DNA of 45,306 bases from a virus. The first letter of the stretch is position 1, and each line of letters starts with the position of its first letter. The notes beneath the pieces were generated by a model that worked only from the letters and a program-made list of their open reading frames with translations, did not search any database and had not been told where the DNA came from. The position numbers and the translations under genes were made by a program. Location of the stretch: the IMG/VR virus record IMGVR_UViG_3300015371_001404, positions 1 to 45,306 of that record; one strand, given 5' to 3'. Shown here piece by piece: positions 23,221 through 38,578 of this stretch.

Positions 23221-24570
23221 TCATACTGCCCTGGCATCGCTCCTGGCCTGGGCCCGCATGGCGTCCATGAGGGCCTGCATCTTGGCGGCGCTGTCGCTCA
23301 CCTCGCGGGCGACCGAGTGGGAGTAGACCGAGAAGATCAGCTGGGCGTTCGCGTGGCCCATCTCGTCCGCGATCTGGTCGGGAGCTACGCCCGCCGCGAC
23401 CTTGTAGCTGGCCATGTCGTGGCGGCCCTTGTGCAGGGTCATGCGCGAGGCCACCGGGCCAGCTGCCTTCCGCATCTTCTCAAGCAGGTATTGCAGCTGC
23501 GTCGGCAGCATGAACAGCCCGTCGCCCGAGAACACCCAGTCGCCCGCCTCGCGGCCCGAGTCCCCGACCTTGCCCCAGGCTTTGCGATTGGCCATCTGGA
23601 GCGTGGCCTGGGCCTGGCGCTGCGCCTTGAGAGCCGCCGCCACCTCGGGCATGACCTGAACGCGGCGGACCTTCAGCTGCTTGCGCTGGCGCTGTGACTT
23701 CAGCACCTCGGTGACCGTGTACTTGCCACTGTTCTGGAGAACCTGGCGGCGGACGGTGAGGTAGCCATCGTCCCCGAAGTCGCTCCACTTGAGACCGGCA
23801 ATCTCGGCGCGGCGAAGGCCGAGCCCGTTGGCCACGTCCCAGAGCGCCGCGAAGTGCGCGGGCAGCACCTCGTGCGCGGCATCGAGCAGGGCCATCGTGA
23901 CCGCCATGTCGGTCTTGTACTCGTTCATGGTCATTCGCTTGGGGTCGTGGAGGTCCTCCTTCGGGTACTCCAGGCGCTCGGTCGGATCGAAGTTGAAGCC
24001 GCTGCGCGAGGGGTTTTCCTCCATCGCTTTGCCCAGGGTGCGGATGACCCAGACCGCCCGCCGCTGCGTGGGGATGCCGACGCCATCGCGGGCCATGCGG
24101 CGCACCCAGCCCTTGAGGTTCTCGAAGTTCAGCTGCTGCTCGGCGCGGCCCTTGGTCCCCAGGCGAAGGTGGCCACAGCCGTGGCTCTTGCTGAGGACGT
24201 GGTTCTTGAGGAAGTTGTTGAAGCGGTTCTCGGTGGTCTCCGACTTCTTCCCCTGGGCGACCTCGGAGGCGAGAATCTCGGTGCTGTACCACGCCGCGAA
24301 CTCGGCCACGTCGGTCATCAGCGCAGAGGTGCGGCTGAGGCCGCGCTCGTGGTTGGCCCACCACTGCTTCCACTTGATGCGAAGCTGCTCCTTGGTCTTC
24401 GCACCGAGCGGCGGGTCGCGATGAGCGATCCCGTCCACGTAGTAGGTGGGAGGCGTGACCTGCCAGCTGGTGACCTGGCCCTGGGCGTTCAGGCGGGGGC
24501 GAGGGTTGGGCATGGCGGTAACGTCGCCGCCTTTGGGGGCCCGCTTGCGGGCGCTAGACTCTCCGTGCAT
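23221..24570 (-). CDS. int: Tyrosine-family integrase
   Basis: 449 aa from ATG 24570, with AGGAGCAAG upstream; the frame is open to 24738. An N-terminal SAM-like DNA-binding region precedes the catalytic domain. All key residues are visible: first Arg in GLGLRRAEIAGLKW, HxxR in LHKGRHDMAS, second His in DEMGHANAQ and the nucleophile Tyr in IFSVYSHSV. It would recombine phage attP with host attB, so the phage is probably temperate. The leader has three hairpins and may contain attP. Confidence 0.93.
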   Translation of the reverse strand: MHGESSARKRAPKGGDVTAMPNPRPRLNAQGQVTSWQVTPPTYYVDGIAHRDPPLGAKTKEQLRIKWKQWWANHERGLSRTSALMTDVAEFAAWYSTEILASEVAQGKKSETTENRFNNFLKNHVLSKSHGCGHLRLGTKGRAEQQLNFENLKGWVRRMARDGVGIPTQRRAVWVIRTLGKAMEENPSRSGFNFDPTERLEYPKEDLHDPKRMTMNEYKTDMAVTMALLDAAHEVLPAHFAALWDVANGLGLRRAEIAGLKWSDFGDDGYLTVRRQVLQNSGKYTVTEVLKSQRQRKQLKVRRVQVMPEVAAALKAQRQAQATLQMANRKAWGKVGDSGREAGDWVFSGDGLFMLPTQLQYLLEKMRKAAGPVASRMTLHKGRHDMASYKVAAGVAPDQIADEMGHANAQLIFSVYSHSVAREVSDSAAKMQALMDAMRAQARSDARAV

Positions 24571-24734
24571 CGGTAGCTTGCTCCTATCGGTGCCACGGGG
24601 GCGGGCCGTGCCTGGCTGCGCCCCCAACACCTTGAATGTGCCCCGCCTATGAGAGTGGCGGGGACTCGGGTTATAGGGGATGGGCAATTTGTGACCAAAT
24701 AATGCCCATCCCGAGTTCAAGCGGGGAGAGTGAG
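24571..24734 (-). promoter_or_regulatory. Integrase leader with three inverted repeats; attP candidate
   Basis: Three inverted repeats lie between the HTH gene and integrase. They are GGGGGCG/CGCCCCC (24597-24625), CCCCGCC/GGCGGGG (24641-24663) and a long interrupted palindrome 24677-24712 made of GGGATGGGCA, ATTTG, TGAC, CAAAT, AA, TGCCCATCCC. The last is A/T-rich in the centre and framed by ACTCGGG/CCCGAGT. None has a T tract. They could be integrase arm or core sites, operators or leader RNA structure. Confidence 0.5.
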
Positions 24735-25040
24735 TCACGCTGCGAGGCGTCTGTTGGGGTCCGGGGGCCAGGCGGCCCCCAGGCGGATGATGGTGGTCTT
24801 CAACGTGCGTCGATCCATGAACAGGCGTTTGGCCACGCGGACCAGGCTGGGCTTGCGACCGGGCTCGGCGTCCTGCTCCTCGCGGTACACCTCGCGTAGC
24901 TTCTTCTCGAACACGCTGCGATCCTTCTCGTAGGGCTTCACGCCTGGCTTCCTCCGCTCCCTGCTCACGATCCCAGCTGCCTGGTCCAACACGTCCCAGT
25001 CAGCCGCATGACACCGACACCGTCCCGCGCATCTGCTCAT
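24735..25040 (-). CDS. HTH protein of the divergent control region
   Basis: 101 aa from ATG 25040, with AGGGAGG eight bases upstream; the longer open frame to 25400 crosses the control region and is not used. The N-terminus has several cysteines (MSRCAGRCRCH), the centre is basic, and SLVRVAKRLFMDRRTLKTTIIRLG is an HTH-like segment of the same style as the 20874 gene. Its place facing the early operon makes it a candidate immunity or integration regulator. Confidence 0.6.
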   Translation of the reverse strand: MSRCAGRCRCHAADWDVLDQAAGIVSRERRKPGVKPYEKDRSVFEKKLREVYREEQDAEPGRKPSLVRVAKRLFMDRRTLKTTIIRLGAAWPPDPNRRLAA

Positions 25041-32971: not shown

Positions 32972-33907
32972 TTACTTGCTCCTCGTGGCTGAACGGCGGC
33001 CTCGCCTGAGCGAGACCACGGGGGCGGAATCGACGGTCTTCGGGTAGCTGCCCGACTGGGTCAGCTTGGCTGGGATCGTGACACTGACGCTGCGGCGTGC
33101 GCGGCGGTCACCCAGGGTGAACAGGTAGCGGTGGTTGCCAGGGTGGCGGACGCGGCGGCAGCCGGCCTCGGCCAGTGCCTGGTGCAGCCAGACCTTCGGG
33201 TCCTGGCGCGGGCCCTTGGGCTTCGCACCCCAGTCGACGAGCAGCTGCTCCGCGTACTGGTGGCCCTGCTTCTGGAGGCGGACCTTGCCCAGGCACTGCT
33301 CGTTGTAGACCTGGCCGTTCGGCAGCAGGTAGATCGTGCGGTCGGTGGCGCGGCCCGCGTACTGGGCGTTCGAGGCCTGGTAGATCGTGCCGACGTGGCC
33401 GGGCATCACCGGCGTGCCATCGGCGGCGGTGCGCGGCAGCGGGTCACTGAAGCTGACGATGCCGCGCATGCCCAGGGCAGCTGCCTGGCGGAAGGCCTCC
33501 GCGATGAACCACGACTCGGCGTTGGCCGGCACCTCGTCCAGCAGCACCAGGCGGCCAAGCTCGGCGCTCTCCTTCATCGGCACCAGCTTGGGGAAGGGCA
33601 GGCTGAGCACCCCAGGGAAGCTGCCGTTCGTGAGCACCGCCACGCCGACCAGGCGCTCGCCCGAGTAGAGGCCGTAGCGCTGGAGGGCAGCGGTGTAGCT
33701 GCCGCTGTAATGGTGCTGGACCACGAACGCCGAGGCGGTGGGCTCGTCCAGGGCCGCGACCTCGAAGGCGCGGCTGTTGAAGCCGCCCTCGGAGGTGTGC
33801 CGCCAGCTGTGGCGGCGCTCGTTCCAGCGCTGGCAGAACGGTGAGGCGGGCAGCTGGCCGGCGATGAAGCTGGCGGTCTTGCCACTGCCACTCGGGCGGA
33901 TGCTCAC
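32972..33907 (-). CDS. Mom-like DNA-modification protein (GNAT fold)
   Basis: 311 aa, GTG at 33907 with AAGGAGCAAG upstream, in a GTGA overlap with the methyltransferase. It reads FVVQHHYSGSYTAALQRYGL, ERLVGVAVLTNG, SAELGRLVLLDEVPANAESW, MRGIVSFSDP, GTIYQASNAQYAG. This matches the Mom family, which modifies adenine in phage DNA. Its product probably shields DNA from restriction. The N-terminus carries SGSGKTASF. The C-terminal 60 residues are very basic. Confidence 0.7.
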   Translation of the reverse strand: MSIRPSGSGKTASFIAGQLPASPFCQRWNERRHSWRHTSEGGFNSRAFEVAALDEPTASAFVVQHHYSGSYTAALQRYGLYSGERLVGVAVLTNGSFPGVLSLPFPKLVPMKESAELGRLVLLDEVPANAESWFIAEAFRQAAALGMRGIVSFSDPLPRTAADGTPVMPGHVGTIYQASNAQYAGRATDRTIYLLPNGQVYNEQCLGKVRLQKQGHQYAEQLLVDWGAKPKGPRQDPKVWLHQALAEAGCRRVRHPGNHRYLFTLGDRRARRSVSVTIPAKLTQSGSYPKTVDSAPVVSLRRGRRSATRSK

Positions 33908-35280
33908 GAAGCTTGCTCCTTCGAGGTGACCGAGGCCCCGAGGCAGCTGCCCAGGGCTCGGAAGGCGGGTGAGATGACTGACTGGCCCAGGACCTCGTGG
34001 GCCACTGTCGCGGAGAGGCCCGCGACCAGCTTGGGATCGATGCCCTTGATCCGAGCGTGCTCGGCTGGGCTCAGCAGGCGGCTGTAGCCCTTCCGAGTCG
34101 GGTGGGCCAGGCGAGGATCGGTGGTGCCAGCCTTCTGGTAGCCGCGCCGCAGGGTCGGCACTGCCACTGACGCGGGGGTGAGGATGCGCTGCTTGAAACC
34201 GTGGCCAGCTGCGGCGTGCCGCGCCTCGTGGGCCGCCTGGCCCTCGAACTTGCGCCAGCTGGCGGCGGGCGTCTTGCGGTCAAGGACCTGGCCGAGGTTC
34301 GCGGGGCGGTCGCCGCCCTGGGCGAGGGCCGAGGTGTCGACGACCATGCCGCGAGTCACTGCCACCATCACCCAGCGGGTGCGGGCTTCGAGCGACCAGG
34401 CGGCACCGTCGACGGTGTGCTCCGAGACCTCGTAGCCCCACTCGGCCAGCTGCCCACGGATGATGTCCGCCGAGGCGCTGTCCGAGTACTCAGGGACGTT
34501 TTCGAGCACGATCACTGCCGGCTGCGTGGCCTCGATGATCCGCAGGAAGCCGTAGGCCAGGTGGCCGACCCTGGCGTCCTGCTCGGGGCGGCGCAGCCCC
34601 TTCTTGCTGCGACCGGCGCGGCTGGCGGCGACACAGGGGAGGCCGGCCTCCAGCACGTCGACCTGGGGGAGCACTGAGGTGTCGACGGTCGCGATGCTGG
34701 CCTCGACGCTCATGCCGCCAGCCTTCCAGGCGGGGTTGTGCTCCAGCGACTGGGCCAGGTACTCGGGGTTGATGTCCAGGCCGAAGGCAAGCTGGCCACT
34801 GACGCCGGCCTGGTGCAGGCCGCGCAGCATGGCGTCACTCGCGATGCCGCCACCGTGGCTGAGGCTGCCCAGGCGCAGCGGCTGGCCGGCTGCCATCCTG
34901 GCGTTCAGCCGTTCGAGGCGGGCCAGGCGGGCCTTCTCGACCGGGTGGACGCTGACGATGACCTCGCCCGAGTCGAGGAAGCGGGCCTGGACCCAGTCGA
35001 CCGGGCCGAGGGCCCGAGTGTGCAGGTCGATCACCGGCCTGGTCTGCTTGCGGCTGACCTTGTGGCTGCCACTGGCGGCCAGGCGGATGTGGAGGGTGTC
35101 GCCGGCGACGGTGGCGTCGTAGCGGACGCCCTGGTCCAGGCCGATGTCGGCCAGGCGGCGGCCTTCGAGCCACAGCCGCTTGGCACCCTTGCTGTCGCTC
35201 AGGCGGTACTCGGCCAGGTGGCGGATGGAGGCAGCTGTCTTGCCAGAGGCGGCGGCGCTGCGGGTGGTGGTTCGTGGCAC
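33904..35280 (-). CDS. C5-cytosine DNA methyltransferase
   Basis: 458 aa from GTG 35280, chosen for GGGAGCAAG seven bases upstream; the frame opens at 35325. After about 130 residues of own N-terminal domain come the motifs: LGSLSHGGGIASDAMLRGLH (SAM loop, weak FxGxG), GLPCVAASRAG (catalytic Pro-Cys), VIVLENVPEY (ENV), RTRWVMVAV. The target-recognition region and a C-terminal motif follow. It methylates cytosine in phage or host DNA. Its target could be related to the CAGCTG excess, but this is untested. Confidence 0.85.
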   Translation of the reverse strand: MPRTTTRSAAASGKTAASIRHLAEYRLSDSKGAKRLWLEGRRLADIGLDQGVRYDATVAGDTLHIRLAASGSHKVSRKQTRPVIDLHTRALGPVDWVQARFLDSGEVIVSVHPVEKARLARLERLNARMAAGQPLRLGSLSHGGGIASDAMLRGLHQAGVSGQLAFGLDINPEYLAQSLEHNPAWKAGGMSVEASIATVDTSVLPQVDVLEAGLPCVAASRAGRSKKGLRRPEQDARVGHLAYGFLRIIEATQPAVIVLENVPEYSDSASADIIRGQLAEWGYEVSEHTVDGAAWSLEARTRWVMVAVTRGMVVDTSALAQGGDRPANLGQVLDRKTPAASWRKFEGQAAHEARHAAAGHGFKQRILTPASVAVPTLRRGYQKAGTTDPRLAHPTRKGYSRLLSPAEHARIKGIDPKLVAGLSATVAHEVLGQSVISPAFRALGSCLGASVTSKEQAS

Positions 35281-35306
35281 TGTCTTGCTCCCAGTGGTGG
35301 CGGTGG

Positions 35307-35675
35307 TCAGGCGGCGCAGCTGCACGAGGCAGCTACCCAGTACGGCATGGTCGGCGTGACGACCTGGCAGTAGTCGCAGTTGGGGGCCTCGTCCTGGCAG
35401 CCCCTGCCGCCACAGCTGCGGTCGCCGCAGTCGGGGCAGAGGTCCTGCACGGCGATGACCTCAGCGGCGTAGCGGCGCAGAGCGTCGAGTTCGCCGGCGG
35501 CGGCAGCGTGGTCGCCCTGGGCGCTGAAGTGGTCGGCCCAGTCGACCGCTGCGGCCAGGCGCTGTGCCTGAGCGGTGTGCCAGGCGGCGAAGTTGTCGGC
35601 GTAGCTGCTGCCAGGTCCGCTGGCGATGATGGCGGCAATCGTGGTGCTGAGAGCGGTGCGGTTGGCGGTGGTCAT
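35307..35675 (-). CDS. Cys-rich hypothetical, first gene of the modification operon
   Basis: 122 aa, ATG at 35675 with GAAAGG upstream. The N-terminal 70 residues are helical and Ala-rich. The C-terminal part has many cysteines (CPDCGDRSCGGRGC, CDYCQ, CSCAA), a likely zinc knuckle. Unknown role; its end overlaps the frame upstream of the methyltransferase start. Confidence 0.6.
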   Translation of the reverse strand: MTTANRTALSTTIAAIIASGPGSSYADNFAAWHTAQAQRLAAAVDWADHFSAQGDHAAAAGELDALRRYAAEVIAVQDLCPDCGDRSCGGRGCQDEAPNCDYCQVVTPTMPYWVAASCSCAA

Positions 35676-35854: not shown

Positions 35855-36565
35855 ATGGGCAAGAAAACCGAGCAGTGGCGTCGGGAGCGGGCAGCCATGC
35901 AGGAGGCCCCCGACCTGCTCAGCCTGCGGCCAGCTGGCCTCCAGGCGGTGGCCCCGCCCAGGCCAAATGCTAACGACGGTTTACAGATCGAAAACGACAG
36001 CTTTACGGGTTCAGCCTTGCACCAGGGAGAGCCCAATCTCAGGCAGCCCAGGAAGCGGACCGGCAAGGTGACGACCAGGGAGCCTGCTCCCAGGGTGCCC
36101 AATGACCAGCTGCTCGGCCTGGGCAACTACAGCCCCGTGGCCCACGTCCAGGCCGCCCGCGAGCGCTTCCTCCAGCTGTACGCCGAGCGCGGGACGATGG
36201 TGGAGTGCTGCCGCCTGGCAGGCCTCAGCTACAACGCCGTGCAGCATGCCCTGGACAAGGACGCCGACTTCGCAGCGGCGTTCAAGGAGGCCGAGCAGCA
36301 GGTTCTAGAGAAGCTCGAACGTGAGGCAATGCGTCGGGCTGTGGAGGGCACCGTCATCCGCTCCCGCAAGTTCTGGCACGGCGAAATGGTGGGCGAGGAC
36401 ATCCGCACCGAGTACTCCGACAACCTGCTGATGATGCTGCTGAGAGCGAAGAACCCGACCGCGTACCGCGACAACAGCCTCATCACGATCAATCAGGTGA
36501 TCAAGGCGGTGGAGGGCTTCGATCCAGCCGAGGTGCTTGGACTCCCTGGGGGGTCCGCAAGCTAA
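35855..36565 (+). CDS. terS: Terminase small subunit
   Basis: 236 aa, ATG at 35855. The first 75 residues are polar and disordered. The middle is HTH-like (GTMVECCRLAGLSYNAVQHA). The C-terminal part REAMRRAVEGTVI, DNLLMMLLRAKNPTAYRDN matches the usual end of P22/phBC6A51-type small terminases. It binds the packaging site and regulates the large terminase. The structured RNA segment right after may be related to packaging. Confidence 0.82.
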   Translation: MGKKTEQWRRERAAMQEAPDLLSLRPAGLQAVAPPRPNANDGLQIENDSFTGSALHQGEPNLRQPRKRTGKVTTREPAPRVPNDQLLGLGNYSPVAHVQAARERFLQLYAERGTMVECCRLAGLSYNAVQHALDKDADFAAAFKEAEQQVLEKLEREAMRRAVEGTVIRSRKFWHGEMVGEDIRTEYSDNLLMMLLRAKNPTAYRDNSLITINQVIKAVEGFDPAEVLGLPGGSAS

Positions 36566-36791
36566 CAATGCTGCGAACAATCCCGTTCGGCGCATCTCAG
36601 CTGAGCGGGCTTGCAACTGCCGTTCACTCTCCCTGGGCAGGAGAGCGAAGGGGAGGTCTCGCGTCCCGCGTTCTAGCTGCTAGGGCCGAAGGCCCCGCGC
36701 GAGGGGGGCACGGGTGCCACTGCCGCCCCCTGGGCCGAGAGGGGGCACGTAGGGAAGCCCACGTTTCCAGAATTCCCACTCGGAGCCTAGT

Positions 36792-36802
36792 GGCCTTAGC
36801 GC
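36792..36802 (+). repeat. Direct repeat GGCCTTAGCGC, copy 1
   Basis: This 11-mer recurs exactly at 36899-36909, so the two copies bracket the 76-nt tRNA-like element (36811-36886). It may mark a duplication, a processing signal or the trace of an insertion. Confidence 0.6.
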
Positions 36803-36810
36803 CTCGCTAT

Positions 36811-36886
36811 GGGAGCGCTCTGGTGCGGAGATACACGGGTGGCGACAACCCCGTGGCTATGGTGGGTCCGATTCCCACCCGCTCCC
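36811..36886 (+). ncRNA. tRNA-like cloverleaf (76 nt), atypical
   Basis: The length is exactly 76 nt. The acceptor helix is perfect (GGGAGCG with CGCTCCC). A T-arm GGTGGG/CCCACC closes loop TCCGATT, close to the tRNA consensus TTCGANY. A short CTC/GAG helix with loop TGGTGCG stands where the D-arm should be. The anticodon-like arm has a 6-bp stem (CACGGG/CCCGTG) but a 10-nt loop (TGGCGACAAC) without the usual U33. No CCA is encoded. It is a degenerate tRNA or a tRNA mimic. Confidence 0.5.
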
Positions 36887-36909
36887 CTCACGCACGAAGG
36901 CCTTAGCGC

Positions 36910-37119
36910 ATGGCTAAGCTGATCATTGCCAGCCCCAGGCGAGTGCGGAATGTCAGCGGCATGTGGCCGACCTGCGAGCGCTGCGGCAAGACGCTACCTC
37001 GCAAGCGGAAGCGCTGGTGCTCCAGAAGCTGCGGTGCCGACTGGTGGATTCGCCGTGAGCGCCTGGACTTCGACTGGTGGCGCTACTGGCGCAAGTGGCA
37101 AGCGGAGCGGGTGGGGTGA
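36910..37119 (+). CDS. Small zinc-finger protein
   Basis: 69 aa, ATG at 36910 directly after repeat copy 2. CERCGKTLPRKRKRWCSRSC contains four cysteines in a treble-clef-like spacing (CxxC, then CxxxC), followed by Trp-rich basic helices. It could bind DNA or the structured RNA upstream; the function is unknown. Confidence 0.65.
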   Translation: MAKLIIASPRRVRNVSGMWPTCERCGKTLPRKRKRWCSRSCGADWWIRRERLDFDWWRYWRKWQAERVG

Positions 37120-37285: not shown

Positions 37286-38578
37286 ATGCCGGCCACCCTT
37301 GAGATCAGGAAGGCGGCTGAGGCCACTGAGCAGGAGAAGCATTACCGCCCACGCGGGGCTGCTCGGGAGTTGATGCGCTGCACCGCTCGCGAGGTGCTGC
37401 TGGCCGGGCCTGCCGGCACTGGCAAAAGCAGGGCCTGCCTGGAGAAGCTCAATCTGGTGTGCATGCAGCTGCCCGTGCGCTGCGCCATCGTCCGCAAGAC
37501 GCGGAAAAGCATCACCCAGTCCAGCATGGTCACCCTGGAGACCAAGGTGCTGCCGCAGCCCAACTCGGTGCTCTTTCACACTGGCGATCAGGAGTACCGC
37601 TACCCCTCGGGGGCCAGGATCGTGCTCGCCGGGCTGGATGATGCGGAGCGGCTGGCGAGCACCGAGTTCGACATGATCTACGTCAACGAGGCGACTGAAC
37701 TGGAGTCGGATGATTGGGGCATGCTGCTGCGCGGACTCCGTAATGGCGTGCTCGGCTACCAGCAGATCATTGCCGACTGCAACCCCGGTCCTCCGGATCA
37801 CTGGCTGAAGCAGCGCTGCGACGAGGGCAGGACCGTGCTGCTGGAGTCGAAGCACGAGGACAACCCCAGCCTCACCGCCGACTACATGAAGGCCCTGGAT
37901 AACCTCACCGGCTGGCAGTACAAGCGGCTGCGGTTGGGGCTGTGGGTCGCCGCCGAGGGCATGTACTTCGAGGAGTGGAACCCCAGCCTGCACATAGTCG
38001 CGGATCGGGAGATTCCGCAGGACTGGCCCCGCTGGCTGTCGGTCGACTACGGCTTCGCAGCACCGTTCTGCTGCCTGTGGTTCGCCCGCGAGCCCGAGAC
38101 CAGAACCATCTTCGTGTACCGCGAGCTATACGCCGCAGGGGTCAGGGACGAGCAGCAGGCCGAGGCGATTGTCCAGGCCACGGGCGACGAGAAGATGCAG
38201 CTGCGGATTCTGGACCCGAGCATGTTCAACGCTAGGACCGAGCAGATGCGGCCCTCCATCGCGCACGTCTACGCCGAGCACGGCTGCTGGCCGGTCTACC
38301 CGGGCATGAATAGCCGCAAGCAGGGCTGGGCAATCGTCCGCCGAGCGCTGGCCACGGGTACTGGTCGGCCCAGGCTTCAGGTACTCGACGGGCGTGCGCC
38401 CAATCTGTGCCGCACCCTGCCGACGCTGGTCCACGACCCGCTCGATCCCGAGGACGTGGCCGACGTGCTCAACCAGCACAAGACCGAGGACCATGCGCCC
38501 GACGCACTCCGCTACGGGCTCGCCGCCGAGGCGCAGCCGCCCGAGCCCACGGAGGTGGAGGACGTGCGGTGGTCCTGA
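37286..38578 (+). CDS. terL: Terminase large subunit
   Basis: 430 aa, ATG at 37286 with GGGGAG upstream. Walker A is GPAGTGKS (residues 41-48) and Walker B is MIYVNEATEL (from 130). The C-terminal RNase H-like nuclease has SVDYGF (Asp 254) and EDHAPDALRY (from 401). It is the packaging motor and nuclease that fills the capsid through the portal. The last codons overlap the start of the next gene. Confidence 0.95.
   Translation: MPATLEIRKAAEATEQEKHYRPRGAARELMRCTAREVLLAGPAGTGKSRACLEKLNLVCMQLPVRCAIVRKTRKSITQSSMVTLETKVLPQPNSVLFHTGDQEYRYPSGARIVLAGLDDAERLASTEFDMIYVNEATELESDDWGMLLRGLRNGVLGYQQIIADCNPGPPDHWLKQRCDEGRTVLLESKHEDNPSLTADYMKALDNLTGWQYKRLRLGLWVAAEGMYFEEWNPSLHIVADREIPQDWPRWLSVDYGFAAPFCCLWFAREPETRTIFVYRELYAAGVRDEQQAEAIVQATGDEKMQLRILDPSMFNARTEQMRPSIAHVYAEHGCWPVYPGMNSRKQGWAIVRRALATGTGRPRLQVLDGRAPNLCRTLPTLVHDPLDPEDVADVLNQHKTEDHAPDALRYGLAAEAQPPEPTEVEDVRWS

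Follow-up and report, generated by a model that had tools for sequence, protein, structure and literature searches.

Does the gap between the two terminase genes of this soil phage encode a structured packaging RNA with a tRNA mimic, or does it hold a site of another kind? An earlier note on this DNA had drawn attention to dense helices and a cloverleaf at this place, and had offered a regulatory RNA, a packaging element and a degenerate tRNA as readings. The window, i.e. the whole stretch of DNA that was analysed, is a 45,306-base IMG/VR virus record; at least 10.9 kb of it recurs without change in a second contig. The placement of the gap between terS and terL was borne out, and the coding frames around it are the following.

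35855-36565, + strand: terS, terminase small subunit, 236 aa (phrog_4044, E = 8.3e-28), with relatives in L008, L009 and others
36568-36906, + strand: open frame of 112 aa across the interval, judged not to be a gene
36910-37119, + strand: small CxxC zinc-ribbon-like ORF, 69 aa (cysteine pattern, GC3 0.83)
37286-38578, + strand: terL, terminase large subunit, 430 aa (phrog_2, E = 7.2e-37; Terminase_3)

The 112-aa frame was rejected as a protein gene on its GC3 of 0.63 and codon score of -0.49, compared with 0.84-0.87 and about +0.37 in terS and terL, and it has no PHROG or Pfam match. Counterparts of the 69-aa ORF were found as a frame with partial similarity in L008 and, by reading of its sequence, in L009. 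The record also encodes a major head protein, a large internal virion protein and an integrase. Just upstream of terS (32972-35325, - strand), a Mom-like DNA modification protein (phrog_1384) lies beside a C5 cytosine methyltransferase (PF00145).

Searches with TerS and TerL identified L008 and L009 as the closest relatives (88% and 82% TerL identity to the window, respectively), and many further TerL relatives lie at 55-71% identity. Dozens of viral contigs hold TerL relatives and more distant ones occur in an Actinomycetota MAG and in Streptomyces genomes, so an actinomycete host is possible for the phage. Among GenBank phages, no DNA-level relative was found and TerL gave distant matches only, the best at 45% over part of the protein. 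The length and content of the terS-terL gap differ strongly among the relatives.

The folding of the interval was compared with shuffled sequences. The at least five helices in 250 nt reported earlier were recovered: 36566-36815 contains 6 hairpins of at least 5 bp, where shuffles average 2.7 (P about 0.01); only 2 reach at least 6 bp, an ordinary number (P = 0.24). Other tiles of the window carry a mean of 2.5 hairpins of at least 5 bp, and 1.7% of them reach 6. The folding energy of the whole interval has a z-score of -2.1, and 120-nt windows fold no differently from the rest of this GC-rich genome except around 36541-36660. Hairpin density in the interval is thus only mildly unusual.

The homologous regions gave no sign of a shared fold. 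RNAalifold returned no consensus pairs for alignments of 13 and 19 sequences, and the mean folding z-score over 17 homologous regions was -0.6. A core hairpin GGYA-CGGG-TRCC was considered as a covarying stem and discarded: when the 3' letters were dealt anew among the sequences, the shuffles reached equal pair counts. The covariation in related phages that had been put forward as a check is therefore missing from these alignments; conservation resides in the sequence and not in the structure, and a DNA recognition site is a better fit than a structured RNA because neither consensus pairs nor covariation were found.

These results bear directly on the idea that a structured packaging RNA is encoded between terS and terL. 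Packaging in phi29 relies on an ATPase-plus-pRNA system, and the window resembles the phi29 prohead RNA locus only by its place beside packaging genes and by its dense predicted folding. It differs by having no conserved structure or Rfam match and by the presence of a TerS protein separate from TerL. With the flat z-score of the homologous regions and the empty consensus of both alignments added, a phi29-like packaging RNA appears most improbable here.

What is conserved in the gap is a short stretch of sequence.

36696-36777, + strand: conserved 82-bp element made of module A, a middle C-rich/AT module and module C; proposed packaging-initiation site

The short motif GGGTRCCACATGCCCCC, or near variants of it, is common to the terS-terL gaps of many relatives. 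In an extended alignment it becomes module A of three modules spread over about 85 bp; module B, about 20 nt beyond module A, is similar to CCCGGAATCCTATACCCC, and module C is A-rich and similar to CCAGAAATCC or TGAAAAAATTC. In the window copy, module A reads CACGGGTGCCAC..GCCCCC and module C reads CCAGAATTCCC. The exact 17-mer core occurs in 8 records among 2.9 million viral contigs, 7 of which belong to the phage group or match its flanks; the exact-core match in L096 looks like chance and was left out. A second recurring motif, about AAGGA followed by CGCGCGCG, was seen about 40-60 nt 5' of the element in L021, L044, L051, L056, L060 and L062, and may belong to it.

A sequence-only model, R1, was built from 19 relatives with the window excluded. 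R1 located the window copy at 36696-36777 with 19.9 bits (E = 2.7e-5), far ahead of the rest of the 45-kb record. With nhmmer in leave-one-out mode, the window copy ranked first in its record but at an E-value of only 0.35, and it is the most diverged of the copies tested in this way. At E < 1e-3, R1 matched 24 of 33 related records, a count that includes the window and consists mostly of records used in building the model; the other nine gave no match at this threshold. Five records outside R1 also carry the element upstream of terL and on its strand: G008 (1.5e-10), G013 (3.6e-7), G012 (2.7e-6), G025 (1e-5) and G028 (7e-4). In G012 some 1.1 kb separates it from terL, and the terS arrangement there is ambiguous. 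Each record has one strong copy, on the terL strand and upstream of terL, nearly always in the terS-terL gap.

Because it is present in single copy on a constant strand, adjoins terS and is conserved in sequence, the element is best understood as a DNA site and most naturally as a packaging-initiation site. We have moderate confidence in the joint reading in which the interval holds two unrelated things, namely a putative pac- or cos-type packaging-initiation site of an uncultured phage group at 36696-36777 and a lineage-specific cloverleaf segment devoid of RNA role. The window would thus carry a diverged copy of a single-copy cis-acting DNA element located between terS and terL on the terL strand. 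TerS would bind its conserved modules and, once bound, recruit TerL, which would cut at the element and so start the filling of the capsid. The packaging element of the earlier note is accordingly retained as the best reading of the interval, on the strength of the sequence element rather than of the folds or the cloverleaf.

With the pac sites of SPP1 and SF6 and the cos sites of lambda and HK97, the element has in common its single copy, its position next to the terminase genes and its conserved modules separated by variable spacers; in the window it is non-coding. No sequence match to known packaging sites was found. In SPP1, TerS binds the pac site, which overlaps the beginning of the terS gene (PMC6316719), whereas the present element lies between terS and terL, just beyond the end of terS. 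This suggests that a packaging-initiation site can sit between the two genes. Among long contigs from bulk metagenomes, 5 of 10 close as circles, and no contig among those inspected ends at the element, which speaks mildly against physical cos ends at this place. Both observations agree a little better with headful packaging than with fixed cos ends, and the site would then be of pac rather than cos type.

The same stretch could instead be a late-gene control site (promoter, operator or leader) acting on transcription or translation. Wherever a record includes terL, the element precedes it on the coding strand, which agrees with such a role, as do its AT-rich parts, in which CTATA- and AAAAATTC-like modules occur. 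The core is nonetheless GC-rich and motif-like, and a scan for terminators and for promoters of the sigma-70-like type alone returned none in the window interval. The distance from element to terL varies about tenfold among records (84 to 880 nt), which argues against a terL leader, and in the window, L008 and L009 a small gene intervenes between the two. A control site is rather unlikely. The conserved intergenic sequence could also be a replication element. Read as a packaging-initiation site, the element is a testable candidate in a phage group that has so far been seen in metagenomes alone and to which none of the GenBank phages searched is closely related.

The cloverleaf, located 3' of this element, has the following structure.

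36811-36886, + strand: tRNA-like cloverleaf, 76 nt, minimum-free-energy fold of its stretch (inverted repeats I11 and I14)
36811-36817/36880-36886, + strand: acceptor, 7 bp, perfect
36818-36820/36828-36830, + strand: D stem, 3 bp
36834-36839/36850-36855, + strand: anticodon-like stem, best anticodon-like loop 10 nt
36861-36866/36874-36879, + strand: T stem, 6 bp, perfect

The described 76-nt cloverleaf with perfect acceptor and T arm was recovered as a fold, apart from its T stem of 6 and not 5 bp, and its D and anticodon arms are abnormal as stated. The two-base linker supposed to precede the D stem (bases 8 and 9, between 36817 and 36818) is absent, as is a 7-nt anticodon loop. The T loop, TCCGATT, is devoid of U55, and a long variable arm and CCA are also missing. 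ARAGORN gave no tRNA call on the cloverleaf; at lowered thresholds it called hundreds of false tRNAs and was uninformative. Rfam returned nothing at its gathering threshold, so that the canonical tRNA call named earlier as a possible refutation was obtained from neither program; the best Rfam score, to tRNA-Sec, was 23.7 bits, half of the 47 required, with E = 2 over the window. Compared with tRNA and tRNA-Sec (CL00001, RF01852), the cloverleaf shares a 7-bp acceptor contiguous with the T arm, giving 13 stacked pairs as in tRNA-Sec, but it fails most tRNA criteria.

Alignment with L008 revealed how this part of the gap differs between the two phages.

36792-36809, + strand: left direct-repeat copy, GGCCTTAGCGCCTCGCTA, where L008 has its single copy
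36810-36898, + strand: segment of 89 nt between the repeats, containing the cloverleaf and absent from L008
36899-36916, + strand: right direct-repeat copy, GGCCTTAGCGCATGGCTA, which includes the start codon of the next gene

The two 18-nt copies are identical at 16 of 18 positions, and the segment between them starts one base before the cloverleaf and ends 12 bases after it. The stretch that separates the CCARAATTCCCA motif from the start codon in ATGGCTA measures 36 nt in L008 but 143 nt in the window, an excess of 107 nt that equals the spacing of the repeats; colinearity with L008 is otherwise exact. At the distance equivalent to that of L008, the window has a start-like copy, CTCGCTA, and the true ATGGCTA follows 107 nt later. 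The cloverleaf thus lies outside the conserved element, in a 107-bp lineage-specific gain, and it is absent from all relatives (42 related loci). With no covariation in homologues either, it is not a conserved packaging RNA, and a functional tRNA mimic is not supported. Although striking, the cloverleaf should not count as a new packaging RNA. The earlier note had singled out the correct interval on grounds that were partly wrong, and had missed both the conserved element and the direct repeats around the cloverleaf.

The segment appears to have been inserted or duplicated later and may be a decayed fragment of tRNA origin; it would have been gained between the element and the next gene, with a copy of the direct repeat on either side and without a selected RNA role. 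A tandem duplication of the conserved core was considered as its source and discarded, since no similarity extends beyond the 18-nt repeat. No other copy of the cloverleaf was found in phages, plasmids or viral contigs, and a search of 397 Actinomycetota genomes gave no source tRNA, with one weak partial match of 39 bits over 43 bases.

Two explanations of the inserted piece were weighed in particular. According to the first, a decayed tRNA gene or an acquired tRNA-derived fragment left a target-site-like duplication. The perfect 7-bp acceptor, the T arm with its TCCGATT loop and the weak tRNA-Sec score point in this direction, as does the close match of segment boundaries and direct repeats to the cloverleaf ends. 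The acceptor-plus-T-arm geometry is found at one place in the window and turned up twice in 600 shuffled windows, a comparison that overstates the surprise as the criterion was chosen after the cloverleaf had been seen; because it is rarer than chance, tRNA ancestry is possible. Set against this are the failed search for a source tRNA, the missing linker and U55, the 10-nt anticodon loop, the 6-bp T stem and an Rfam E-value of 2. The degenerate tRNA of the earlier note is therefore kept, for the cloverleaf alone, as a tentative idea.

According to the second explanation, which has a substantial chance of being right while falling short of probable, the cloverleaf and repeats arose by chance, as hairpins in a freely drifting GC-rich gap and a repeat made by slippage. 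The strong variation of gap length and content among relatives and the lack of similarity in the rest of the repeat unit agree with this, and the tests of arm geometry and of the repeat were both chosen after the fact. It has to account for an arm geometry found in fewer than 1 in 100 shuffled windows, for a 16/18 repeat that arises at such spacing in 4 of 3000 control placements (about 0.1%) and for a left repeat ending one base before the cloverleaf. A tRNA-derived mobile segment with target-site duplication, or a tRNA mimic recruited in this lineage for packaging or translation, is very unlikely. The tRNA-like 3' half and the integrase gene recall attP sites that carry a tRNA 3' end, but no identical host tRNA segment was found and the gene is distant.

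23221-24738: integrase gene, about 12 kb from the cloverleaf

The cloverleaf is probably not a working RNA, and the RNA structure of the interval together with the tRNA mimic is most likely incidental to the proposed packaging-initiation site.

Theta-type ribozymes adjoin phage tRNAs (PMC10879173), and one was considered beside the cloverleaf; Rfam detected no ribozyme in the window, Twister-P5 included. In several relatives, between one and four self-cleaving Twister-P5 ribozymes per record were detected, which lie opposite to terL in all but L053 and have the following spans.

L044, 572-2646, - strand: Twister-P5
L046, 348-2087, - strand: Twister-P5
L038, 260-1383, - strand: Twister-P5
L032, 1161-1627, - strand: Twister-P5
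L049, 1150-1210, - strand: Twister-P5
L039, 2020-2071, - strand: Twister-P5
L053, 1631-1685, + strand: Twister-P5

When the sequence of L044 was read, its Twister-P5 copies were found between genes, and in at least three of the four cases a common GGGAGGGCAATTCC-like stretch comes soon afterwards, before the next gene. Do these copies cut up the gene cluster? Two other relatives have type II hammerhead ribozymes.

L066, 2070-2136, - strand: type II hammerhead
L040, 1024-1089, - strand: type II hammerhead

These hammerheads occupy the same strand as the twisters at a similar distance upstream of terL, as if the two kinds of ribozyme replaced each other there.
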